A stretch of DNA of 64,000 bases, taken from positions 1-64,000 of the forward strand of contig JAOAPY010000039.1 in NCBI GenBank assembly GCA_025463135.1. Direction: 5' to 3'. The DNA comes from Acidobacteriota bacterium (GTDB taxonomy: Bacteria; Acidobacteriota; Blastocatellia; Pyrinomonadales; Pyrinomonadaceae). The stretch's first letter is position 1, and each line of letters begins with the position of its first letter. Position numbers and translations under genes: made by a program. Positions 12,775 through 23,600 of this stretch are shown piece after piece. The notes under the pieces were generated by a model that was not told the origin of the DNA, did not search any database, and saw only the letters and a list, made by a program, of their open reading frames with translations.

Positions 12775-14217
12775 TCACGGTCGGTTTCCGCGAGCGATAT
12801 GTTGTTTTAGGTTCTCGTAACGCATCGGCACTGCCTTGGCAGCCAGCTCTGAAAAAAGACGCCAGGGATTTTGATCCGGCTTGATCAAACCCAGAATGCG
12901 TTTGTGAAACGGGTTTTCAAGCGCCCCCGGATGCGTGGCCGCATTAACGGTCACTTTGTATTCCTCGGGAGTTTCCTTCTCGGTATACATCCATAGCGAC
13001 GTCGTATCATAGTTCTCGTCGACCAGGATTACTGCGCCGCCGTGCGTCGGCGCACACTTGTCAGTATCCACGACCCAACCGCCACTGTTATAGACCCTCA
13101 TCCCCGGATGAAATCCGTCATAGTTGTAATCCCTTTGCAGCGGCTTGTGCGTGTGCCCGAAAACAAAGGTGACATGCGGGGGTATATTGCCGCCACGCTC
13201 CTGAGCTATCTGGTCGAATATGGCGCCCTCGAGGTATTTCTTGAGACCCGCCTCGGCCTCTGCGCTTAAATCCCCTTCCTTGGGCGCGCACCGTTCACGG
13301 TCCCTGACTGCTTTGAGTAAAAAGTGAAAAAGCGCTCTGAGTATTTTCTTATCGGCCCAATCCCAGCCGGGTAGGTCGTAATGCTTATCCAGACCATCAA
13401 CAAGATTATCCAACAGTTTTCCGAGTGCCTTGTCGTCTTGTAACGTATCGTAGACCACCTCGACGTCACTGCCGACGTCGCCGGAGCGCCCCATGGTGGA
13501 CCAAAAGAAATCGATCCAGGCGAAGTTTTCTGCTTCGATTGTGTAGATTGTCTGCGGCGGTTTGCTGTAGGGAAACATCAGTCCCCTCAATTCGCTCATC
13601 AGCATGTACATCGATTCGATGAAGTGTCCGTGGCTGAAGACTATGCAACGGCTGGAGTCATCGCTGATGAGTCCGAAATTTGGATAGACGGTACTAACTT
13701 GTTCCTGAGTAAGATGCGGATATCTCTGAATGATGCCGTTTAGAAAAATGGCGGGCACGGGGTCGGGCTTGAACAACTTGGTCGTATGCCAGGGAATATC
13801 CAGCAGACTGCCGGGCAACTTCTGTTTGTCATTATGAGAGATGTAGTTCACATACTGTGCTTCGCGGGCCGTCTCCCACAGATGATGATCGTGGTTACCG
13901 GGAATGTAGACGATTTCCTTGAAGAGACGCTCGCCTTGCGCGGGAAAAATCAACTCGATGAAGCGTTCAAAAACCATTGCCGCCTCGTTATCTGTGGTCA
14001 AAGCAAGCTCAAGGATGTCTCCGTTTAGAATGAGGATCGGCTTCTCAATGCTTTCGTTCTGCAGAATTAGACTCTTCAAGCATTCGACCAACTGGACCAG
14101 CACCGGACTGGCAATGAGCGGATCGGTATCACTGCAGTCGTTAGTCAGGTTGGTGAGCAGACTGTTCTCGGCGCCCAGGTGCATATCCGACAAACACACG
14201 TATTTGATATCAGGCAT
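12775..14217 (-). CDS. Calcineurin-like metallophosphoesterase
   Basis: A 480-aa cytosolic dinuclear metallophosphoesterase. The full metal-ligand set is visible: SDMHLG (residues 9-14), NGDILE, PGNHDHH, SHGHF and GHTHKP near the C terminus. A large insertion between GNHD and GHTH makes it longer than the usual 250-300 aa. The start is set by ctccggagaag just upstream of the ATG at 14217. It is the last gene of the minus-strand oxidoreductase block, separated from the GMC gene by a 174-bp gap with a repeat, so it may or may not be cotranscribed. The substrate is unknown. Confidence 0.85.
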   Translation of the reverse strand: MPDIKYVCLSDMHLGAENSLLTNLTNDCSDTDPLIASPVLVQLVECLKSLILQNESIEKPILILNGDILELALTTDNEAAMVFERFIELIFPAQGERLFKEIVYIPGNHDHHLWETAREAQYVNYISHNDKQKLPGSLLDIPWHTTKLFKPDPVPAIFLNGIIQRYPHLTQEQVSTVYPNFGLISDDSSRCIVFSHGHFIESMYMLMSELRGLMFPYSKPPQTIYTIEAENFAWIDFFWSTMGRSGDVGSDVEVVYDTLQDDKALGKLLDNLVDGLDKHYDLPGWDWADKKILRALFHFLLKAVRDRERCAPKEGDLSAEAEAGLKKYLEGAIFDQIAQERGGNIPPHVTFVFGHTHKPLQRDYNYDGFHPGMRVYNSGGWVVDTDKCAPTHGGAVILVDENYDTTSLWMYTEKETPEEYKVTVNAATHPGALENPFHKRILGLIKPDQNPWRLFSELAAKAVPMRYENLKQHIARGNRP

Positions 14218-14285
14218 TTTCTTCTCCGGAGTAATGAACTCTCTTCCTCTGATGTCGCGTACTGCCGGTACCACAGCGGCAGATT

Positions 14286-14378
14286 CGTTAGTACCACCTG
14301 CATATGCGGGTGGGTCAACTCGTGGGGTGACACTTCAGCGAAGAAAGAATCCACGCGCAAACGCGTGTGGTACTGACA
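14286..14378. repeat. Palindromic repeat, ggtactgac family
   Basis: The arms gttagtaccacctgcatatg and the opposing acgcgtgtggtactgac enclose about 60 bp, and each arm also forms a small hairpin (ccacctgcatatgcgggtgg and cgcgcaaacgcg). Related ends appear near 50-82 and 58341-58352. Confidence 0.6.
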
Positions 14379-14391
14379 AATCACCGCCTCG

Positions 14392-15954
14392 CTATATTGA
14401 ACTTACAACCGCTTCCGCGATCCGTTCCGCGACGGCTGAGATTGTCATCACGGGATGAAATCCTATCGCGGTGGGAATCACCGAACCGTCCGATACGAAC
14501 ATGCCTGGATAACCATGAACTTCGCCGCGGGGAGAGACCACGCCCGTCCCAGGTGTATCGGAAAGGTGGCAACCACCCAGCGAATGCACCGTGATAATCC
14601 GGCGAAAAATGCTCCAGGAGATCAAAGGCGCAAAGGTGCCGCCATAGATGTCGCCCATCTGCTGCATGGCGGCTTTCATTTTTGCGACCAGTTCGCGGTT
14701 CTCTCGTTCGTATTTCCACTTGATGTCGAGACGATCGCCTTTCAGGACAATGCGGCCGTTGGCGTTGTCTCTGCCAATCGCGAAAAGGTTTGTCATGCGC
14801 GCCGGATCACCCGCGTTGCGCGCGGGTAGTCTGCTGGGATGACTGAGAAAGCCTTTCTTGAAAGCCCAGGGCATCAAGCTGTTCATCAGCGGCCATAAAA
14901 GAGGTGATAAAGGACGCAAGAGTTTACCGCTTCCCTGCCCCAGCGAGGCCAGCACTTCCATGACCTTTCGATTAAAGGTGGGAGCGGCCATGGTAAAGCC
15001 GGGCTGCGAATCAAAATAGCGGATCACAGAAGTCACATCCGGTCCTTCCCAGGGATGCAGATTGGCTCTGCTGTTTTGAATTGAACCGAGAAAGTCGCCA
15101 TTGCCTGAGTAGCCATAGCCCAACCTGCTGCTCAAGTTCGGCAGCGTACGCAGCACATCGCGACAGCGCAGCAGGATTTCGTTTGTGCCCAGCGTACCGG
15201 CGGCCATCACCACCCGAGCGCCCATGACTTTGGCGGAGTTGCCCGTGGCCAAATCTTTGTAAGTTACGCGATAAGCCTTATCTGCTGGTTCGATGCTGCT
15301 AACCAAACATCCAGGTCTGATAACCGCGCCCAAACTTTCGGCCTGGGCCAGGTAGTTAAAGTCCAAAGAGTTCTTGGCTCCGTACTGACAACCGAACTCG
15401 CACTCCGCGACCATGCGGCACGGCTCGCGTCCGTGCTCCGTGGCGCCCTTCCAGCGCACCGCCATGTCCGGATCAAACACCTGGCGACCGGCTTTGGCCG
15501 CTGCATCACGATAGATGTTTCGCTTGACCAAATTGATTTCGGGAGGAATGGGCGCGACCTCGAGCATCGCCGCCACCTTGTCATAGTAAGGGTCAAGGCT
15601 TTGACGATTTAGCTCGCGCGGCCAACGCGGATCCTCGAACACTATGCTGTCCGGGCGAATGTGAATGTTGGCGTAGACCAGCGAACCGCCACCCACACCG
15701 CTGGCGACGACAGTGGCGATTCCTGACAGGAATCGCATGTCATATAACCCTCTCGACTCGGGCCGTTTGGGATAGCGCCAAAAGATACTGTTGACATCCC
15801 TCACATCGCGCGGGAACTCGCCGGGTTTATAGCGACGGCCCCGCTCCAACACGAGCACGGATTTGCCGGCCTGGGCCAGACGCAGGGCATTGATGGATCC
15901 ACCGAAGCCTGAACCGATGATCACTGCATCGAATTGCTCGTGGGTTTCACTCAT
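14392..15954 (-). CDS. GMC oxidoreductase, cholesterol oxidase-like
   Basis: A 520-aa FAD-dependent alcohol oxidase or dehydrogenase of the GMC family. The dinucleotide fold is GSGFGG at residues 14-19, followed by LERGRRYKPGEFP. The region CRMVAECEFGC is a degenerate form of the Cys motif seen in ChoD-like proteins. The C-terminal active-site segment runs HSLGGCHLSDTPG and then VSDGSVIPTAIGFHP, where the two His residues occupy the usual catalytic pair. The organisation most resembles ChoD-type sterol oxidases. The 32-bp gap to the VAO-type gene upstream implies cotranscription. The natural substrate is unknown, and a sterol, terpenoid or long alcohol is plausible. Confidence 0.85.
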   Translation of the reverse strand: MSETHEQFDAVIIGSGFGGSINALRLAQAGKSVLVLERGRRYKPGEFPRDVRDVNSIFWRYPKRPESRGLYDMRFLSGIATVVASGVGGGSLVYANIHIRPDSIVFEDPRWPRELNRQSLDPYYDKVAAMLEVAPIPPEINLVKRNIYRDAAAKAGRQVFDPDMAVRWKGATEHGREPCRMVAECEFGCQYGAKNSLDFNYLAQAESLGAVIRPGCLVSSIEPADKAYRVTYKDLATGNSAKVMGARVVMAAGTLGTNEILLRCRDVLRTLPNLSSRLGYGYSGNGDFLGSIQNSRANLHPWEGPDVTSVIRYFDSQPGFTMAAPTFNRKVMEVLASLGQGSGKLLRPLSPLLWPLMNSLMPWAFKKGFLSHPSRLPARNAGDPARMTNLFAIGRDNANGRIVLKGDRLDIKWKYERENRELVAKMKAAMQQMGDIYGGTFAPLISWSIFRRIITVHSLGGCHLSDTPGTGVVSPRGEVHGYPGMFVSDGSVIPTAIGFHPVMTISAVAERIAEAVVSSI

Positions 15955-15986
15955 GCTGTCATCGCCTTCTTAATGGTGAGTATTTT

Positions 15987-17639
15987 TCACACCTGCTGTT
16001 CGGGAAGACCGATGCCGTACCGACCCGGGGCAATGATGTTGTCCGGGTCGATCGACGCTTTCATCGTATTCATCAACCTTTGGAACTCAGGCGCGCCGTT
16101 TAGAATTCGATCTCCAAAAGCGATGCTGGTGCGATACTGCTGGAAGCCGGCCGCAACGGTTTTTTCCGCCAGTTCGTTGTAAAGGGCCTGAGCGCGGGAC
16201 GCTTCGTCAGCGTTTGCCTTCTCATAGAAAATCTCAATCAATCCCACCGCCGACCGCGGGCTGACCATGACGAACGTGCACGACCAATCAAAGCCATGTT
16301 TGTAAAAAATCGGCTTACAAATTTTCTCGAGTTCCCCGGTGTGCCTGCCGGTGAGCGGCGAGATCACGGCCAGCCAGATTAGCCCGGCTCCATCCCGCGC
16401 CGGATCAACGTTGGTGCGCGGTCGTGGCCCACGCGATTTGAAGTAAGCAAAACCAACGATAAATTCGCCCGGAGTACCCTTGAAAATTGGATAAATGTGA
16501 GGAATCACTTCGAGCTTCTCGAGTGAACCGCCGGTGGCCCACCTGAGAACTGAAGACAACAACGAGTTGTTCTGGTGCTTTTTCCAGAACTTAAGCAGCG
16601 CCTTCATCACACCGAACATTCGATCGTCCAGAAATGAGAGGCGTCCGTAACCCGACAGTCCGGACTTGACGATATGGCGGCAGGCCCGGACCTGGGATCG
16701 CGTGCCATAGATACCACCCGTAACTGTCCACGGTCTGATCTTCAGTTTCTTACGCAGCGCGGCCCGGGTATCTTCGGAAAGATAGGTCTTGCCGTCGAGC
16801 AAATCATATGGATACTGGATCATCTGGGCCATGAACATAACGTCATTGATCATGTGCACGTTGCTCTCCAGCACGTCGTCCAGAGCGAGGCGACGGATTG
16901 TATCAATGACAGCGGGCAGGTCACGTTCGTCCTTAATTTCGCAAGTAAACGAATTGAAGCTTTCGGGCTCGGGCAGCAGCCAGATGCCGGCTTTGGTGAC
17001 AATCCCAAAATTCGACTGGCTGAAAAGTCCCTCAATGTATGGCCCGGAACCCCATTTGTGCGTGTGCCACGTCAGAGAGTTTTCCGCGCCGCCGCCGGTG
17101 CGCACGAATTCACCGTTGGCAAGCACAACCTCTAAACCGCACAAGTGTCCGAAGTGGTCCCAATAGGGTGTATAACCAAAGCCGCGTTCGAGCGCATTGC
17201 CAATGACGCTGCCTTCGGTGGTTGAATCGGTGCAGTCGGCCCAGAGTTTGATGTTGTTGGCTTTCAAATAATCATCGAGCTGTTTCTGCGTCACGCCCGG
17301 CTCGATCACTGCGTAGGCAAGTTCTTCGTTGACTTCGATGATCCGGTTCATGCGTTCGAGAATCAGAATCAACGCGCCGTCTCTGTAGCCCATGGTGGCG
17401 CCATAACCCCAGTTCTTTCCTTTACTGTAGGTCCAGATCGGTATCTTATATTCCGCGGCGATTTTTACAATTCGCGCGACTTCGGCGGCTGTTCCCGGAT
17501 AAACCACGGCGGCACAGACACGATGCCACATGCTCGTGTCGCGCGAGTGAGCCTCTCGGTCGTTGGTGCGAGTCAGGATGTGGTCATCGCCAACGACCGC
17601 ACCAATCTTTTTAATGGCTTCTGGGAACAGGTTTTCCAT
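15987..17639 (-). CDS. VAO/PCMH-type FAD-linked oxidoreductase
   Basis: A 550-aa flavoprotein of the vanillyl-alcohol oxidase/p-cresol methylhydroxylase superfamily. The N-terminal FAD-binding domain begins with CAAVVYPGTAAEVARIVKIA and has the characteristic SKGKNWGYGATMG loop near residue 95. TEGSVIGNALERGFGYTPY then follows near residue 143. The C-terminal substrate domain ends with DPDNIIAPGRYGIG, the conserved tail of this family. Enzymes of this group oxidise 4-alkylphenols or related aromatic alcohols. Some pair with a cytochrome subunit, and none is visible nearby. It lies between the two GMC genes in one transcription direction, so the three may act on one substrate series. Confidence 0.85.
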   Translation of the reverse strand: MENLFPEAIKKIGAVVGDDHILTRTNDREAHSRDTSMWHRVCAAVVYPGTAAEVARIVKIAAEYKIPIWTYSKGKNWGYGATMGYRDGALILILERMNRIIEVNEELAYAVIEPGVTQKQLDDYLKANNIKLWADCTDSTTEGSVIGNALERGFGYTPYWDHFGHLCGLEVVLANGEFVRTGGGAENSLTWHTHKWGSGPYIEGLFSQSNFGIVTKAGIWLLPEPESFNSFTCEIKDERDLPAVIDTIRRLALDDVLESNVHMINDVMFMAQMIQYPYDLLDGKTYLSEDTRAALRKKLKIRPWTVTGGIYGTRSQVRACRHIVKSGLSGYGRLSFLDDRMFGVMKALLKFWKKHQNNSLLSSVLRWATGGSLEKLEVIPHIYPIFKGTPGEFIVGFAYFKSRGPRPRTNVDPARDGAGLIWLAVISPLTGRHTGELEKICKPIFYKHGFDWSCTFVMVSPRSAVGLIEIFYEKANADEASRAQALYNELAEKTVAAGFQQYRTSIAFGDRILNGAPEFQRLMNTMKASIDPDNIIAPGRYGIGLPEQQV

Positions 17640-17748
17640 CTTGAAGTAGCACAGACTAGTCTGTGATTGTTTGGTGCCTCGAGTCCGATGAGTAGTTCCG
17701 CAGGCGACTCAGACTCTCTTAACACTCACCGCAGGGTTAAGTTTGTTT

Positions 17749-17998
17749 CAGCCCGCGTAGCGGACGAAAGCGTAGAGCCTGGGGTAAAGCGCAGCGGAAC
17801 CCCAGGTGCAAAGGGACATTGATGTTGAGCCCGTGAAACGGGCTACTCAGACGTGGCATTAAATAAGATTGGCACTTACCTTAATATCGGGCTGTCGCCC
17901 ACTTTCGTGGGCTCTGGTTTTTCTGACCTCATCCATCCCGGGGTTGCGCTGCGCTTGACCCCAGGCTTTATGCTTACACCCGCTACGCGGGTTCAGGC
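17749..17998. repeat. Large nested palindromic element
   Basis: About 250 bp of nested inverted arms. The outer pair is cagcccgcgtagcgg (17749-17763) with acccgctacgcgggtt (17978-17993). The next pair is agcctggggtaaagcgcagc (from 17775) with its opposing copy ending ccccaggct (17967). Inner hairpins are gagcccgtgaaacgggct and a cgggctgtcgcccac stem. The right end supplies the stop codon of the GMC-hydrolase gene. Confidence 0.75.
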
Positions 17999-20900
17999 GC
18001 CGGGTCCTTCGAGGTGCTGCAAAATGAAAGGATATACGTCCTTCGCAGCGTCCTTCCCGTAAATACAATCAATGTGCCCGTAGCCGGGGATGACGTGGCG
18101 ACTGTACAAGTTGCTCCCATTTTTTTCCCGTAGCGCGTCGTACGTCAGGCGCGTGCTTTCGGGCAGGAAGCAGGCATTTTCGGCGCCATGAATGAACGCA
18201 ATCGGAATTGCCAGGCGCTCCAGATGCGGCATATAGACATCACCACCGCCGGCGCCCACCAGTCGTCCCTCGCGAACCAGCAAGGCCAGATGCTCAAAAC
18301 AAGTGACGTTGGCGACACCAAACATCTCGTGCAGCGCATCGTGCGTCGCCGTATTTAACTGATCGTGTTCATAGAGATTCGAGTACATGAAGGTTATGCG
18401 ATGACAGGTAGGGTTGTTGCAACGCTCTTCGGCCTGCATCGGATAAAGGCTGAGGGCTTTGTCGTAAAGCTTTTCATACCACTTGGCATGAGTATCGACA
18501 TAAGCATTTAACGACTCGATACCCAGATCGTCCATCAGCGAAGGCATGTGCAAGCCGCACTTAATTTTGGTCATCAGCGGCGCGACGATGTTCGTGGCGA
18601 TTTGCGAGCAGACTGCCGAGCGCACTCCCTGTAAACCGGCCAGCATGGCCATGAAAAAAGTGGTCGAGCCGAAACAGTGCGCGACCATCTGCACGCTGTC
18701 AGCGCCTGTCAACTCTCTCACTTTAGCGACTGCGGCCGGATAATCTTTGGTCGCAATGTCATCACCGGAAAATTGCGCGAGCGCCGCCGGCAGATCAATG
18801 CTGGCGCGAAAATCCAACAACCACACATCGAAGCCATGCGCAAAAAGGTACTCAACCAGATTGGTGCCGATCGTATCGATGGAAAAGATCAAGCTCGATA
18901 CGCCGAGGCCGTGTGACAAGATGACCGGACCCTTGCTGCCGCCCTGATAACGGGTCAGGCGCAGTTGCACTCCATCAGAAGTGCTGAAGGTATGCACCTC
19001 CGGCGCGGTTACACGCAACGGCCGCTTCTTGCGCGGCGGCGCATCCGGATTGAAGGGAGTCGCCTTGGCAAAGATGCCGCCGTATGTCTCATACATCACA
19101 CCGGCAAATGAACGCCCAAAGCGCATTTGCGCCTCCAAACGCTCTTTGGTAGTCGGAGCATTGGTAATTTGCATGGTCGTCAGTTGGCGCATGAAGTCGT
19201 CGGGAGAGATTCTTAAAATTCCTCTGCCGAAAACAGGGCCGGTCGCATCCGCGCCGGCATATACCGTGGTATACAAAGTGGTGGTATCCGGCCAGGCATC
19301 AAACGCCGCATCGTGATGTACAACTTTGAAGCCTTCGAAGTAGAACAGCTTGCCCTCCTCGCTGGTCAGCTTCATGCGGTAACGCATGTTGGTGGTATCG
19401 ACATGCTCAGGATCGATAGTAAAGAGATTGAAAACTCCCTCCGAAACTGTCAGCGGTTGGTTTGAAAGCAATTCACAGACTACGGTGCCGGCTGTGCGAA
19501 ACTCGTGCGCTGCATCATTGATCGCATTATCAAGATCATCAGACGCGATAGTCAGCACAAACTCCAATGTCGTCCCCGCGGCCTTGCCCTGACTGGCAGC
19601 TGACTGGTACTCATCCTTGACGTCAGTAGAGAAGTAGCCGTGCATTCTTTCCGTGAATTGCACGCCGATCTTCTGTGGCGGCGCGGACGACGGCGAGGGC
19701 GCATGGAATTCATAGTCAATCTTCCAGCCGTGATCGTTGGCCATCAGGACACAGCAGCGTTCGGCAAGGGCCGATATCGTCAAAAGCGGATTGACCCCCA
19801 ACGAGCGTGGCACCACGGAACCATCGCTGACATAAAGGCCATCGTAAACTTCACTGCCCTGAGTAGCAGCAAACACCTGGCCTTTGTGATTTACCACACC
19901 ATGTTCGGCGCTCTCGCCCATAGGACAGCCACCCAACGGATGCACCGTGATCAGTTCGCGCTTGAGCATCTTGCTCCAGATTGGATCTTCAACATATGTG
20001 CCGCCCAAAGGCCGCGTTGCGGCTTGCAGCTTTCCGTTGGCCATCTGGAAGATCGGTTTAGAGCCGACACCCGGCCAGGCGATACGTAACCGGTCGTCAT
20101 CCAGGTACATGCGCCCGTCGCTGTCGTCATGCGTCATGATCAAATAGGTTTGCGTGTTGTGCGCCGCTCCGTGATATGCACCGCGTACGAGGCTGTCAAG
20201 TTCGCGTTTTTTCTCGCTCACAAAATCGACCAAACCGCTGTCGGTGTCTACGCCGACGGCGGCGGCGGCAGCAGCCAGCCCGGCCGGTAAAGTTGGGCCA
20301 AGCGCGCCCGGGACTGCTCCTTCTTCAATAACGAGGCCGCTATCCAGCTCTGTCTTATTGCGGGCATCTATGATGCCGGTGATGGTCGGTCCCACGGGTT
20401 CGCGGCCCTCCGCCGGCAACGTGCCGTAACCCACGCCGTTGATTTCGACATCGTTGTTATAGCCAAAGGCCAGTACATCACCATTGCCGGTAAAGCTTTC
20501 GCCCACCTTGTCCGAGGTTGCGAGGCCCGCTGCTTTTGAGCGCAGCAGAATCTCCGTTGAGCCCAGCGTTCCCGCAGAGAGAATCACGATATCGGCAGTA
20601 ACAAACATGGTCGGCGCGTCAAACTTTTCGCGCCCCGAATCCAACAGTTGGTAGTGGACCACCCAGCGTCCATTCTCACGTTCGAGCCGGCGCACGGAAA
20701 CCTGCGTGTAAATTTCAGCACCGTGGTTCCTGGCATCCGGCAGGTAATTCATCAACACGGTGTTCTTGGAATGATAATTACAGCCGGTCACGCAATCACC
20801 GCAGAGTTTGCAGGCATGCTGTTCAACGCCTACGTGATTGAGCCCGTTGGGCGGTTCTTCAAAGGTAACGTTGAGGGGTGGACGATAAAACTTTTCATTC

Positions 20901-21403
20901 AGTTCGGCGGCTGATTTTTCAAGCGCCAATAGTTTTGGCAATTGAATGCTGTCCGGCAACGGCGCCGGTCGCAGCATCTCCAAAGCGTGCCGGTAGCCAT
21001 CTTCGATCAGCGTATTCAGATCGTCGCGCACGGCCTGCGGCCAGCGCGGGTCGTCGAAGACGCGCGGTTCGGCCCGCAATACGACGTTGGCATTGACCAG
21101 CGAGGTGCCGCCCAGACCACAACCAAGAAAGACATTCACTTCATCGTTGACGCGAAAGTCATATAATCCGGTGCGCGTCCCCACATGAGCGTGCGGGAAA
21201 TCAGTTTGCATTTCGGATACTGCTTCCCACTCGGTGTCCGGATACTCTCCGGGCTGGAATTCTTTTCCTCTCTCCAACAGACAAACACTCTGGCCCGCCC
21301 GCGCCAAGCGCGAGGCAGAAATTCCTCCGCCATAACCCGAGCCCACTATCACGGCAGAGTAATGGTCTTTGATTTCGTTGATGGGAGATGATACGCGCGT
21401 CAT
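17993..21403 (-). CDS. GMC oxidoreductase fused to alpha/beta hydrolase
   Basis: This 1136-aa protein has three parts. Residues 1-565 are a ChoD-like GMC oxidase: GSGYGG at 21-26, a ferredoxin-like Cys motif CKLCGDCVTGC (Cys198, 201, 204, 208), and the active-site His488 (HPLGGCPMG) and Asn538 (GVNPLLT). Residues 580-790 are a beta-rich linker domain I do not recognise. Residues 800-1133 are an alpha/beta hydrolase with oxyanion loop SHGLG and a C-terminal GYGHID (His1110). The nucleophile elbow reads AHCFGS, so Cys910 replaces Ser, as in PHA synthases. The expected acid position reads HGAEN. A ribosome binding site, aaagga, precedes the ATG. The fusion suggests oxidation coupled to ester or thioester chemistry on one lipid-like substrate. 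Confidence 0.88.
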   Translation of the reverse strand: MTRVSSPINEIKDHYSAVIVGSGYGGGISASRLARAGQSVCLLERGKEFQPGEYPDTEWEAVSEMQTDFPHAHVGTRTGLYDFRVNDEVNVFLGCGLGGTSLVNANVVLRAEPRVFDDPRWPQAVRDDLNTLIEDGYRHALEMLRPAPLPDSIQLPKLLALEKSAAELNEKFYRPPLNVTFEEPPNGLNHVGVEQHACKLCGDCVTGCNYHSKNTVLMNYLPDARNHGAEIYTQVSVRRLERENGRWVVHYQLLDSGREKFDAPTMFVTADIVILSAGTLGSTEILLRSKAAGLATSDKVGESFTGNGDVLAFGYNNDVEINGVGYGTLPAEGREPVGPTITGIIDARNKTELDSGLVIEEGAVPGALGPTLPAGLAAAAAAVGVDTDSGLVDFVSEKKRELDSLVRGAYHGAAHNTQTYLIMTHDDSDGRMYLDDDRLRIAWPGVGSKPIFQMANGKLQAATRPLGGTYVEDPIWSKMLKRELITVHPLGGCPMGESAEHGVVNHKGQVFAATQGSEVYDGLYVSDGSVVPRSLGVNPLLTISALAERCCVLMANDHGWKIDYEFHAPSPSSAPPQKIGVQFTERMHGYFSTDVKDEYQSAASQGKAAGTTLEFVLTIASDDLDNAINDAAHEFRTAGTVVCELLSNQPLTVSEGVFNLFTIDPEHVDTTNMRYRMKLTSEEGKLFYFEGFKVVHHDAAFDAWPDTTTLYTTVYAGADATGPVFGRGILRISPDDFMRQLTTMQITNAPTTKERLEAQMRFGRSFAGVMYETYGGIFAKATPFNPDAPPRKKRPLRVTAPEVHTFSTSDGVQLRLTRYQGGSKGPVILSHGLGVSSLIFSIDTIGTNLVEYLFAHGFDVWLLDFRASIDLPAALAQFSGDDIATKDYPAAVAKVRELTGADSVQMVAHCFGSTTFFMAMLAGLQGVRSAVCSQIATNIVAPLMTKIKCGLHMPSLMDDLGIESLNAYVDTHAKWYEKLYDKALSLYPMQAEERCNNPTCHRITFMYSNLYEHDQLNTATHDALHEMFGVANVTCFEHLALLVREGRLVGAGGGDVYMPHLERLAIPIAFIHGAENACFLPESTRLTYDALREKNGSNLYSRHVIPGYGHIDCIYGKDAAKDVYPFILQHLEGPGA

Positions 21404-21449
21404 GATTAACGTCCTTTCTGGATCTGAGGGCAGTCAATAGGATTTGTAG

Positions 21450-22262
21450 CTACGGCTTTTTCTTTGGCGCCTCTACATCTGCTGCGGCGGCGGGTTGTCT
21501 GATCACGAAATAGCCGGTGGGCACGATGCCAATCGCCTGCTGGCCCGCTCTTGCACCTGAGGTTTCGTCGTAAAAGCTTTGCCACCATTTGGCGGCGTGC
21601 CAGATTGCTTCCGGACAGATCGAACCGCTGGAAAGACCCGGCGCCATCTCTATTCCAGCAGTGCCGTAGGCTGTGGCCACAAATGCCGAACCGGGTAAAC
21701 CAATACCTGCCAGCAGCGGATTGCCCCGCTCACCGACGGCCCAGACGTAGCCCAACCAGGCCACAATCAACGCCGGCAGATCAATGATCCCGCGCTGGCC
21801 CTGGATGCTTTCGACGATGCTGCGTTCAGGCGGCTGCTTCTCCGGCCCACTAAAAACGAACTCAGGATTATCCGCGAAGCGCAACACGGCGACATTCGGA
21901 AACAGTTGCGGATCTTTGTAGTCGGCAAGTGAACAAGTCTGTACCCCATTGGTGTTGGGAGTTTCGGAAATGTCTCCACAGATTTCCAAGGGAACCGACA
22001 CGAACGATTTGTCATCTTTGAATAGCCCAGCCAGCGACCAGTAGCTGGGTAACAGATCGCTTCTGACGTGCGATTGCGCCACGCGAATTCGAAAATGGGA
22101 AGGCGAAGCACCGCCAAACATAACCACACCATCCGTCGCTTTCGGATTGAGGGCGCGCACGCGTTCGAGCCACTGCAAATTGTTTTCCCGCTTGTTGAGC
22201 GGTTCTAATTCCTGGATCTTGTCGTTGGGGCGCGTGGCGCCTGATTGCCGACTGGCGAGCAT
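21450..22262 (-). CDS. Unknown protein in GMC cluster
   Basis: A 270-aa protein with no signal peptide and no motif I recognise. It has a compact N-terminal half with DGVVMFGGASPSHFRIRVAQ. The C-terminal half contains a hydrophobic stretch (IDLPALIVAWLGYVWAVG), a Gly/Ala-rich part and a Trp-rich segment (WHAAKWWQSFYDE). The tail is Ala/Lys/Pro-rich. It sits 9 bp after the PhoD-like gene, and its ribosome binding site (aggagaa) overlaps that gene's end, so translation is probably coupled. It lies 46 bp before the GMC-hydrolase fusion. Its conserved place in the block suggests an accessory or chaperone-like role, but this is inference only. Confidence 0.7.
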   Translation of the reverse strand: MLASRQSGATRPNDKIQELEPLNKRENNLQWLERVRALNPKATDGVVMFGGASPSHFRIRVAQSHVRSDLLPSYWSLAGLFKDDKSFVSVPLEICGDISETPNTNGVQTCSLADYKDPQLFPNVAVLRFADNPEFVFSGPEKQPPERSIVESIQGQRGIIDLPALIVAWLGYVWAVGERGNPLLAGIGLPGSAFVATAYGTAGIEMAPGLSSGSICPEAIWHAAKWWQSFYDETSGARAGQQAIGIVPTGYFVIRQPAAAADVEAPKKKP

Positions 22263-22271
22263 AAAATTCTC

Positions 22272-23600
22272 CTATTGCAAATTGTGAGTAGAAATTGTTC
22301 TGCCGGGTTGGGACGAGGGCGAGCCATCCTGCTTGAAAGGCCAATCTCTGACAACTAATTCAGCGCCGGCGCCTTTCGCACGAAATTCGAGCGTTAGAAA
22401 GTGATTGCGCGCGAAGTTAAAAGTTTCGTCGGTTGTGATCGCGGGAGAGCCGGGCACGTTGAGAGTATTAGGCGCTTTGCCCCAGCCACCCAGGAGATTG
22501 AAGCCGGGGGGCGCTTCGACCAGAGACATCGGCGAAGAAATGATTTCAATCAATTCCGTTCCGTTGAACAACCTACAGGTAGCAACGCGGCCATAGTGGA
22601 CATCGCCCGTGAGAATCACGACGGTGTGACGCGCTGCGGCCAGCGCGGTCGTCAGCCGGCTATATTGCCAACCAAAATCCGGTAAACCTAAGTCCGCCCA
22701 CTTTGCAAACAGTCCGCCTTTCTTGGTAAACACCGGCTGCCCGACGACGAGCACGCCCGGTCCGCTTAAGTTTCCGATCCAATTAACCAGGACATCCAGG
22801 TCGGGCTCATTCATGAACTGGCCGTTTCTATCGTCGCGGTTTGTGCGTGTGTCGGCGGTAAAGAACGAGACCGGGTTCACAGTGAAGGGCTGCGGTCTTC
22901 CCTGGAAGACGTCGTAAAACTGGCGCGCCAGCCGCCGCCAATCCTCTTTGCGCTCTTTGTTTCGTGAGTCGCGCACGGCAACGGCTTCGTTGGGAGCGTT
23001 GTTCCAGAATTCGTGATCGTCCGGAGAAAAATAATTACCGCCAGAGCGCAGCAGATCGTAGAGCGTTACCCTGCCCCCAACCGGTCCAAACGTTTGCAGG
23101 TAGGTATTCAAAAACATCGCTCGTAATTCATCGGCGCTGTGCTTAGCCGAAATGAAGTTATAGTAAGGAGCATCAAGGTAAACCTGATCGCCGCACAAGA
23201 ACTTTACGTGGGGCGCACCGTTTCCACGCAAACGGTTGAAGGCAGCGCTGGCCGCTCCCTTATCTTCTTTCCAGTAGAAGCATGAGCCAAGTAAGACCGT
23301 GAAAGGTGTGGGATCAGTCAGGCTGGGAAGCTGGGCCGGTAAAGTGGTCAGATCACCCTGGGCAACGACTTGACCATTGATCCGCAGCGCCAATGAATAG
23401 AGCTTAAAGGAATCCAGGTTATTGAGTTGCAGGCGTTGAAACCTTACGGTGCCTGAAGGATCCTGTTCCCAAACCGCCCCCAACTGGATCTGCCCGCCGG
23501 TAAACTCGAGTATCGCCGGCCCGGGATTCTCGTTGGCAACTCCCACCCAGACGCTGGCAGAGTTTGTACCGACCTCATGGGGGATAATCAGAAATGCCAT
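22272..23600 (-). CDS. PhoD-like metallophosphatase
   Basis: A 442-aa protein related to alkaline phosphatase D. The metal-site motifs are LLGSCFYW, CGDQVYLDAPYYNF, a DDHEFWNN segment and LTGDVHYGRVA. The preceding 100 residues form a beta-sandwich like the N-terminal domain of PhoD proteins. No Tat or Sec signal is obvious at the N terminus (MAFLIIPHEVGTNSASVWVG), which is unlike secreted PhoD, so it may be cytoplasmic. It is the first gene of the minus-strand block and its leader has ggtgact before the ATG. The presumed substrate is a phosphodiester, perhaps of a lipid head group, given the neighbours. Confidence 0.8.
   Translation of the reverse strand: MAFLIIPHEVGTNSASVWVGVANENPGPAILEFTGGQIQLGAVWEQDPSGTVRFQRLQLNNLDSFKLYSLALRINGQVVAQGDLTTLPAQLPSLTDPTPFTVLLGSCFYWKEDKGAASAAFNRLRGNGAPHVKFLCGDQVYLDAPYYNFISAKHSADELRAMFLNTYLQTFGPVGGRVTLYDLLRSGGNYFSPDDHEFWNNAPNEAVAVRDSRNKERKEDWRRLARQFYDVFQGRPQPFTVNPVSFFTADTRTNRDDRNGQFMNEPDLDVLVNWIGNLSGPGVLVVGQPVFTKKGGLFAKWADLGLPDFGWQYSRLTTALAAARHTVVILTGDVHYGRVATCRLFNGTELIEIISSPMSLVEAPPGFNLLGGWGKAPNTLNVPGSPAITTDETFNFARNHFLTLEFRAKGAGAELVVRDWPFKQDGSPSSQPGRTISTHNLQ

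Follow-up and report, generated by a model that had tools for sequence, protein, structure and literature searches.

Several described enzymes serve as reference points for the gene block analysed here. PHA synthases use a cysteine nucleophile, and the acyltransferase PLAAT1 is not known to have the alpha/beta hydrolase fold. PLAAT1 carries out phospholipid acyl transfer with a Cys-His-Asn triad, according to an excerpt of the source (PMC11989323). For FAD-glucose dehydrogenase of the 3Fe-4S type, from Burkholderia cepacia, the cluster ligands are given as Cys212, Cys218 and Cys222 in an excerpt of a second article (PMC6719666). The block combines relatives of such enzymes with two phosphoesterases; full-text literature searches for the combination gave no relevant paper, in agreement with the first-pass annotation, which knew of no named pathway with this gene set. 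We tentatively favour, while stopping short of even confidence, a reading in which these genes represent one form of a recurrent metabolic module, so far undescribed, that would act on a hydrophobic alcohol by removing phosphate, by dehydrogenation and by transferring or cleaving an acyl group, here with a phenolic branch.

The window is a stretch of 64,000 nucleotides from an Acidobacteriota contig. As first annotated, six long open reading frames lie together on its minus strand, in the transcription order PhoD-like phosphoesterase, a 270-aa protein, a fusion of GMC oxidoreductase and alpha/beta hydrolase, a VAO/PCMH-type flavoprotein, a second GMC flavoprotein (GMC2) and a calcineurin-type metallophosphoesterase. 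The intergenic gaps, in the same order, are 9, 46, 353, 32 and 117 bp. Cotranscription of most of the block had been proposed from the gaps of 9, 46 and 32 bp; these gaps stand, but those of 353 and 117 bp had gone unnamed. Because the close gaps fall within the first three genes and within the VAO-GMC2 pair, two units are favoured, and the spacing supports a predicted arrangement of PhoD-like gene, 270-aa gene and fusion as one unit and VAO-GMC2 as another, with the calcineurin-type gene looser. Within the 353 bp that separate the VAO gene from the fusion lies a palindromic element of about 240 nt (17752..17991, minus strand) with a 19-mer present in inverted copies; folding of the stretch 17735-17995 gave an MFE of -131 kcal/mol (z -8.98). 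A promoter scan returned 5 sites against 6.9 expected and a terminator scan 21 against 13.0 expected (sd 3.9); the unit borders are not based on these scans. The GC content of the block (0.527-0.554) is like that of its surroundings (0.52-0.58), so that composition shows no sign of recent transfer, and we rejected an argument for recent arrival from base composition. The scatter across taxa described below is the only hint of transfer.

The fusion protein (P0004; 1136 aa, 17993..21403, minus strand) was divided by Pfam matches and alignments into a GMC part (residues ~1-560), a domain that we call X (~573-790) and an alpha/beta hydrolase, ABH (~800-1136). Both the fusion and GMC2 (520 aa, 14392..15954, minus strand) have GMC_oxred_N and GMC_oxred_C domains (PF00732/PF05199) over the Pfam cut-offs. 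The fusion has a CxxCGDCxxGC motif at residue 198 and GMC2 a C-x5-C-x3-C motif at 179, and the latter pattern is present in 38 of the 39 GMC sequences compared (L036, L037, L039, L040, L043, L083, L093 and L113 being left out of the count). The catalytic subunit of FAD-glucose dehydrogenase has the same x5, x3 cysteine spacing in the stretch matched by a GMC profile (residues 203-314), although the overall similarity is weak (E 0.033). The block is also without a cytochrome c gene: none of the six proteins, and no open frame of at least 60 aa within the block, contains a cytochrome-type CxxCH acceptor motif. The GMC proteins, with their cysteine set of the iron-sulphur type, look more like dehydrogenases, and the term 'oxidase' of the first-pass annotation may be wrong.

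The GMC is nearest to cholesterol oxidase, with which the fusion has in common the GMC fold, the FAD motif and a His and an Asn that we take to be active-site residues of the cholesterol-oxidase type. It differs in the extra cysteine set, in the fused X and ABH domains and in having no secretion signal that could be seen by eye. The predicted model of X is fairly good, and the fold searches were dominated by hydrolase matches. Depending on the locus, X is fused either to GMC or to patatin, which suggests that X-bearing GMC and patatin proteins may share a lipid-like substrate.

In the ABH domain, which matches Abhydrolase_1 in Pfam, the candidate catalytic residues are Cys910, His1110 and Asn1076. 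An apparent Cys-His-Asn triad is present in 25/25 ABH sequences, a count that omits L090 (where the match is short and partial, has Ser in place of the Cys and is blank at the positions of His and Asn), and the nucleophile is Cys in 25/26. By sequence the domain resembles gastric lipase (E 7.5e-6), and acid lipases (gastric and lysosomal) top both fold-search lists, although in the second their Z scores (17.9 and 17.8) are close to those of an archaeal esterase (17.5) and a thioesterase (17.4). However, the Ser-His-Asp triad of acid lipases is replaced by Cys-His-Asn. PHA synthases share the Cys nucleophile but have Cys-His-Asp, and the two NCBIfam PHA synthase models each gave 20.6 bits against cut-offs of 622.65 and 365.3. 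The triad matches that of PLAAT1 as described in the excerpt cited above, a likeness of the triad alone from which we claim no kinship.

These likenesses to cholesterol oxidase and to gastric and lysosomal acid lipase could be read as a unit for sterol or steryl-ester degradation, in which an acid-lipase-like ABH would free a sterol and a cholesterol-oxidase-like GMC would oxidise its 3-hydroxyl. We consider this improbable. At 186.6 and 155.5 bits, GMC2 and the fusion fall far short of the 850 bits that serve as cut-off for cholesterol oxidases in NF058674, the GMC cysteines are missing from cholesterol oxidases at the alignment columns compared, the ABH nucleophile is Cys rather than Ser, and the phosphoesterases would be left unexplained.

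The VAO/PCMH-type flavoprotein (550 aa, 15987..17639, minus strand) has a FAD_binding_4 domain and matches p-cresol methylhydroxylase (PCMH) with E 6.6e-91. Its Tyr79, Tyr502 and Arg503 align with PCMH Tyr95, Tyr473 and Arg474, which we take to be the phenol-site residues, so that all three are kept; the cytochrome c subunit of PCMH, however, is absent from the block. Asp412 lies opposite the FAD-linking Tyr384 of PCMH when the alignment is extended 3 residues past its end, where it is uncertain. The protein also differs from vanillyl alcohol oxidase, since the residue aligned with the presumably FAD-linking His of 8s7r is Leu420. Its gene adjoins that of GMC2 both in the window and in L044, the nearest relative of the window, where GMC2 is 76% identical; a PDB search with a short GMC2 fragment gave no match. 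The kept phenol pocket and this pairing would fit catabolism of plant phenols of the lignin or eugenol type, with VAO and GMC2 as the main enzymes. As an account of the whole block we find this improbable: only two of the loci in the set of 41 compared below have the VAO gene, the core recurs without it, and there is no ring-cleavage function among the six genes.

Turning to the phosphoesterases, the PhoD-like protein (P0006; 442 aa, 22272..23600, minus strand) scores 23.7 bits for PF09423, under the Pfam cut-off of 27, but has in common with PhoD phosphatase the motifs GSC, GDQ, DDHE and GDVH, which we assume to be those of the metal site. No twin-arginine signal was seen at its start. The calcineurin-type protein (P0001; 499 aa as listed, 12775..14274, minus strand) matches Metallophos PF00149 over the cut-off (24.7 against 21.5 bits) with metal motifs intact, and its gene probably starts at ATG 14217 rather than GTG 14274, because the homologue in L111 shares an MPDI-YIC stretch near its own start. 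Neither phosphoesterase has a sequence relative in the PDB at E 0.1. An anti-phage role for the calcineurin-type protein was rejected, its NCBIfam matches to antiphage proteins being weak (16.1 bits where the cut-off is 420, and 14.7 where it is 790). The 270-aa protein (P0005; 21450..22262, minus strand) matches no Pfam family over cut-off, and a resemblance to a permuted papain-like fold was an impression only that we rejected (predicted-fold pLDDT 28.5). Its relatives lie upstream of GMC in L035, L045, L061 and L079 and beside PhoD in L107, and this recurrence makes it a candidate partner of the PhoD-like protein.

To place the block among other genomes, 41 loci chosen by GMC/fusion similarity (the window and 40 others) were compared, together with 10 further loci around relatives of the other block genes, giving 50 other loci in all. 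The ratios describe the set so chosen, which includes near relatives (L042/L043, L038/L039/L040 and, from one genus, L112/L113). GMC and X occur together in 32/41 loci, and among these 32 an ABH is present in 24 and a phosphoesterase in 15. The 15 phosphoesterases belong to three distinct families and each is matched by a query from another locus; the other 17 loci have none by these queries, some being cut by contig ends. The same queries gave no match in 126 kb of unselected DNA (six stretches), nor in a wider control of 275 kb (14 stretches) that included eight loci known to be phosphoesterase-free, three of them with GMC and X. PhoD relatives lie beside GMC in L035, L045 and L081, and calcineurin-type relatives adjoin it in L053, L112 and L113. 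In the soil bacterium Ensifer (L055), one polypeptide of 1908 aa joins GMC, ABH and PhoD (79.5 bits for PhoD), with a middle part that matches no X query; in Azospirillum (L049) the unit consists of two genes. Phosphatase-oxidoreductase loci were seen in Acidobacteriota, Actinomycetes, Cytophagales and Pseudomonadota, and the association of phosphatase with oxidoreductase in the first-pass annotation is borne out by this recurrence and by the Ensifer chain. Judged from these loci, GMC, X, Cys-type ABH and metallophosphoesterase form a recurrent core.

Around this core the block varies, and its conservation as one unit of six did not hold: none of the 50 other loci has all six genes. The block might instead place two or three independent functions side by side, namely the PhoD-like, 270-aa and fusion genes, phenol oxidation by VAO-GMC2, and the calcineurin-type gene as an unrelated neighbour. 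The palindrome-bearing 353-bp gap and the at least 117 bp ahead of the calcineurin-type gene fit such a division, as do loci in which the parts stand apart: a PhoD and 270-aa pair in 20 kb free of matches to GMC, X and ABH (L107), PhoD relatives alone (L108, L109), the calcineurin type without GMC (L111, L114, L115) and VAO alone (L110, L116). Against it, L044 keeps the order fusion-VAO-GMC2 with a gap of ~120 bp, L050 has GMC2 after the fusion, and L053 of Variovorax has the calcineurin type beside the fusion. We regard such independence as somewhat unlikely. PhoD, 270-aa protein and fusion also occur together in L035 and L045 (with the hydrolase as a separate ORF in L045). In the sister locus L044 the phosphoesterase is of the longer type, where the window has PhoD and calcineurin types, and no PhoD relative was found in the L044 genome; the family is thus exchanged with the position kept.

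In a phylum sample of 247 genomes, the window genome included, the full-length fusion was found in 3, PhoD relatives (E 1e-10) in 5, VAO (E 1e-30) in 3 and the calcineurin type (E 1e-10) in 6. Because each is rare in the phylum yet they occur together here, a chance grouping is unlikely. In the other genomes of the sample, there was no GMC beside the relative in 3/5 cases for the calcineurin type, 3/4 for PhoD and 2/2 for VAO. Synteny in near relatives, proposed earlier as a check, was not seen: none of the 16 other same-family genomes sampled had a match to the fusion (E 1e-20), nor to PhoD, VAO or calcineurin type at the cut-offs above. Scans of other groups with the fusion (E 1e-60) found it in 9/296, 7/345 and 3/201 genomes, these being samples with the centre genome counted in.

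From the recurrent gene content, the Ensifer fusion and the conserved residues we infer an order of steps for the module favoured above. A phosphoesterase, cytosolic as judged by eye (here a PhoD-type enzyme, accompanied by one of the calcineurin type), would take phosphate off a hydrophobic substrate. The fusion GMC would then dehydrogenate an alcohol on that substrate, with electrons probably passing from FAD through an iron-sulphur cluster, while X would bind or present the substrate and the Cys-nucleophile hydrolase would transfer or cleave an acyl chain. In the window variant, the VAO-type enzyme would act on a para-alkyl phenol, oxidising its side chain, and GMC2 would oxidise the alcohol so formed. 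The pathway probably acts on lipid-like alcohols; the identity of the substrate is a guess. A bolder version, rather unlikely in our view, is a new, horizontally scattered pathway for a phosphorylated, acylated hydrophobic alcohol, with an iron-sulphur GMC dehydrogenase, a Cys-His-Asn alpha/beta acyltransferase, a lipid-presenting X shared with patatin, three phosphoesterase families in one slot and a long form ending in an acetoacetate-decarboxylase-like decarboxylation. In the window genome, the sole PF06314 match has no tblastn match to the decarboxylase-like queries of the module, and a patatin-X query finds only the X of the fusion.

Taken together, the results point to a gene block that is rare in bacteria and to a pathway that is undescribed. 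The fused proteins allow testing with one or two genes, and the apparent Cys-His-Asn triad and the iron-sulphur cysteine set make sharp biochemical predictions. If the favoured reading is true, proteins listed apart in databases as 'alpha/beta fold hydrolase', 'GMC family oxidoreductase', 'metallophosphoesterase' and patatin would belong to one pathway in at least four phyla, and the swapping of phosphoesterase families at one position would offer a clear example of a step that persists while its enzyme is replaced.

The six open reading frames of the block (12775-23600, minus strand) were borne out as the first-pass annotation had described them, by ORF and family checks. In transcription order they encode a PhoD-like phosphatase (22272-23600), an unknown protein (21450-22262), a 1136-aa fusion (17993-21403), a VAO/PCMH-type flavoprotein (15987-17639), a second GMC oxidoreductase (GMC2, 14392-15954) and a calcineurin-type phosphoesterase (12775-14274, probably starting at 14217), with gaps of 9, 46, 353, 32 and 117 bp. 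Since no signal peptide was evident in any of the six proteins (protein starts were judged by eye), we take the block, by eye only, to be cytosolic. The fusion-VAO gap of 353 bp compares with about 120 bp in L044, the nearest relative, and holds an imperfect palindrome some 240 nt long (17752-17991), identified by folding and as an inverted repeat. The 261 nt at 17735-17995 have an MFE of -131 kcal/mol (z -8.98), equalled by 0 of 200 shuffles. A 19-mer of the palindrome has no other copy in the window with up to 3 mismatches, and its exact form was absent from the 116 loci searched except three spanning this very place. The palindrome is possibly a miniature inverted-repeat element.

The fusion comprises a GMC domain (residues 1-560), an unnamed domain X (about 573-790), for which a Pfam search returned no family at E 10, and an alpha/beta hydrolase (about 800-1136). 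X and the hydrolase are also encoded as stand-alone genes in other loci, and in L038 and L042 X is joined C-terminally to a patatin, which marks each of the three domains as a natural unit. A structure model of X plus hydrolase had a mean pLDDT of 59.8 (X mostly 81-92, with dips to 52-69; second half of the hydrolase mostly <50). With this model, the first four Foldseek rows were gastric and lysosomal acid lipase. A second fold comparison also placed acid lipases first (Z 17.9, rmsd 5.3, 247 residues; Z 17.8, rmsd 4.6, 247 residues), tied with an archaeal esterase (Z 17.5) and the thioesterase DcsB (17.4). Gastric lipase was matched by sequence too (E 7.5e-6 and 1.5e-5).

Cys, a nucleophile known from PHA synthases, holds the nucleophile position in 25 of the 26 hydrolase copies aligned; the remaining one is a partial match. 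A His, an Asp two residues later and an Asn at the usual acid place are each present in 25/25. The acyltransferase PLAAT1 is given a Cys-His-Asn triad in an excerpt of a review (PMC11989323); the triad common to both would be an analogy only. The GMC domains carry Cys-x5-Cys-x3-Cys in 38/39 copies, and the fusion type adds a fourth Cys. This spacing is identical to that of Cys212, Cys218 and Cys222, which hold the 3Fe-4S cluster of FAD-glucose dehydrogenase according to an extract of its description (PMC6719666). A profile of the GMC stretch matched residues 203-314 of that enzyme (E 0.033), and, provided that stretch has no gaps, the offset of the match would align the three cysteines with 212, 218 and 222. 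Cholesterol oxidases are nearer to these GMCs overall but lack the cysteines at the columns compared. No cytochrome c is encoded within the block. In the VAO protein, Tyr79, Tyr502 and Arg503 align with PCMH Tyr95, Tyr473 and Arg474, the phenol-holding residues; L044 retains the same motifs. Where VAO relatives have the His that links FAD, the window protein has Leu.

Of 247 genomes sampled across the phylum, 3 hold the full-length fusion (the window, G008 and G137); the 16 other sampled genomes of the same family gave no match at E 1e-20. In the same phylum sample, window included, there were PhoD-like matches in five genomes (E 1e-10), VAO matches in three (E 1e-30) and calcineurin-type matches in six (E 1e-10). 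Groups around other relatives gave matches at E 1e-60 in 9/296, 7/345 and 3/201 genomes, counts that take in the centre genome and many partial matches. Scanning genome contigs once yielded 5 loci. Of 83 matching plasmid records, 8 covered at least 80% of the query (Azospirillum, Leptospira, Persicobacter, Bernardetia, two Rhizobium, Variovorax and Arthrobacter), the Arthrobacter match being to separate genes with no fusion. On a Leptospira borgpetersenii plasmid (L050:5507-10520) the fusion is followed by a GMC2 relative, matched in two frames. Downstream of the fusion in G137 (L035:14627-19786) lies another GMC copy with 51-52% identity to that of the window.

Chosen for their resemblance to the fusion, 41 loci, one of them the window, were compared using queries for each part. 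GMC was matched in all 41 and X as well in 32; these 32 had a hydrolase (24/32), a phosphoesterase (15/32), a patatin (10/32) or an acetoacetate-decarboxylase-like protein (8/32; PF06314 at 50 and 57.5 bits in two members, cut-off 29.8), which small membrane proteins adjoin in most of its loci. A longer neighbourhood is conserved in varied orders in L082, L087, L088, L091, L042, L043 and L057: long-type metallophosphoesterase (not found in L091), GMC, X, Cys-hydrolase, decarboxylase-like protein, patatin (alone or joined to X) and small membrane proteins, of which one is a DUF4345 protein and another weakly resembles anthrone oxygenase. Two distant genomes encode, next to the fusion or the hydrolase, a 486-aa protein that exceeds the cut-off of no family (L034:12063-13478 and L092:7915-9375; 54% identical), and a FAD_binding_4 flavoprotein lies between X and hydrolase at L079:3335-4795.

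The phosphoesterases belong to three families that these queries separate. The long type (10 loci) has hydrophobic stretches and matches Pfam Metallophos weakly, the L044 member having merely 25-27% similarity to the others; PhoD occurs in 4 loci, including the window; and the calcineurin type occurs in Variovorax (L053) and as the window's second phosphoesterase. All 15 loci were matched by a query from a different locus. The other 17 GMC+X loci had no phosphoesterase by these queries, several being short contigs. The phosphoesterase queries gave no match in 126 kb of other DNA or, as a weaker control, in 275 kb. A tree built from 39 GMC domains places the window fusion as sister to L044 (support 1.0), with PhoD and calcineurin type in the window versus the long type in L044, whose genome, a metagenome assembly of completeness not given, has no PhoD relative at E 0.001. 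The phosphoesterase slot is kept while the family changes, the strongest backing for the pairing of phosphate removal and oxidation first proposed for the block. In Ensifer, a single 1908-aa chain (P0010, L055:8812-14538), annotated as an alpha/beta fold hydrolase and nothing more, contains GMC, hydrolase and PhoD (79.5 bits; 26% identical to the window's PhoD); its middle part had no match to X queries.

The leading alternative is that VAO-GMC2 on one hand and the calcineurin gene on the other serve separate functions. VAO relatives in two other phylum-sample genomes have the module beside them in 0/2, and calcineurin-type relatives lie beside a GMC in two of five such genomes (one genus) and not in three; those GMCs, in L112 and L113, are distant, and the one that was aligned, in L112, lacks the cysteine set. 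Speaking against this alternative, L044 has the order fusion-VAO-GMC2-long phosphoesterase, and in Variovorax the gene upstream of the fusion is of calcineurin type (29%). Among PhoD relatives in four other phylum-sample genomes, the module adjoins only in G137. The PhoD-unknown pair recurs in L035, L045 and L107, yet in L107 a 20-kb stretch shows no match to GMC, X or hydrolase, and its pair is preceded upstream by another calcineurin-type phosphoesterase (L107:11872-13338). In L061 and L079 the unknown protein is upstream of GMC at a contig edge.

The genes, their recurrence, the Ensifer chain and the residues are observed. We commit to a module whose steps act on one hydrophobic substrate, presumably held by X, and infer the step order, substrate class, cluster and acyl chemistry. 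The phosphoesterase would strip phosphate from this substrate, an alcohol on it would be dehydrogenated, and an acyl chain would be transferred or cleaved; in the window variant, VAO and GMC2 would add oxidation of a para-alkyl phenol. Each enzyme is in a known superfamily; the fusion, GMC2, VAO and PhoD-like proteins each fall short of the nearest named families in one or more defining tests; and a full-text search for the gene combination found nothing relevant, a weak negative as most subscription journals and preprints lie outside its coverage. We therefore regard the block as known enzyme folds put together in a new way.
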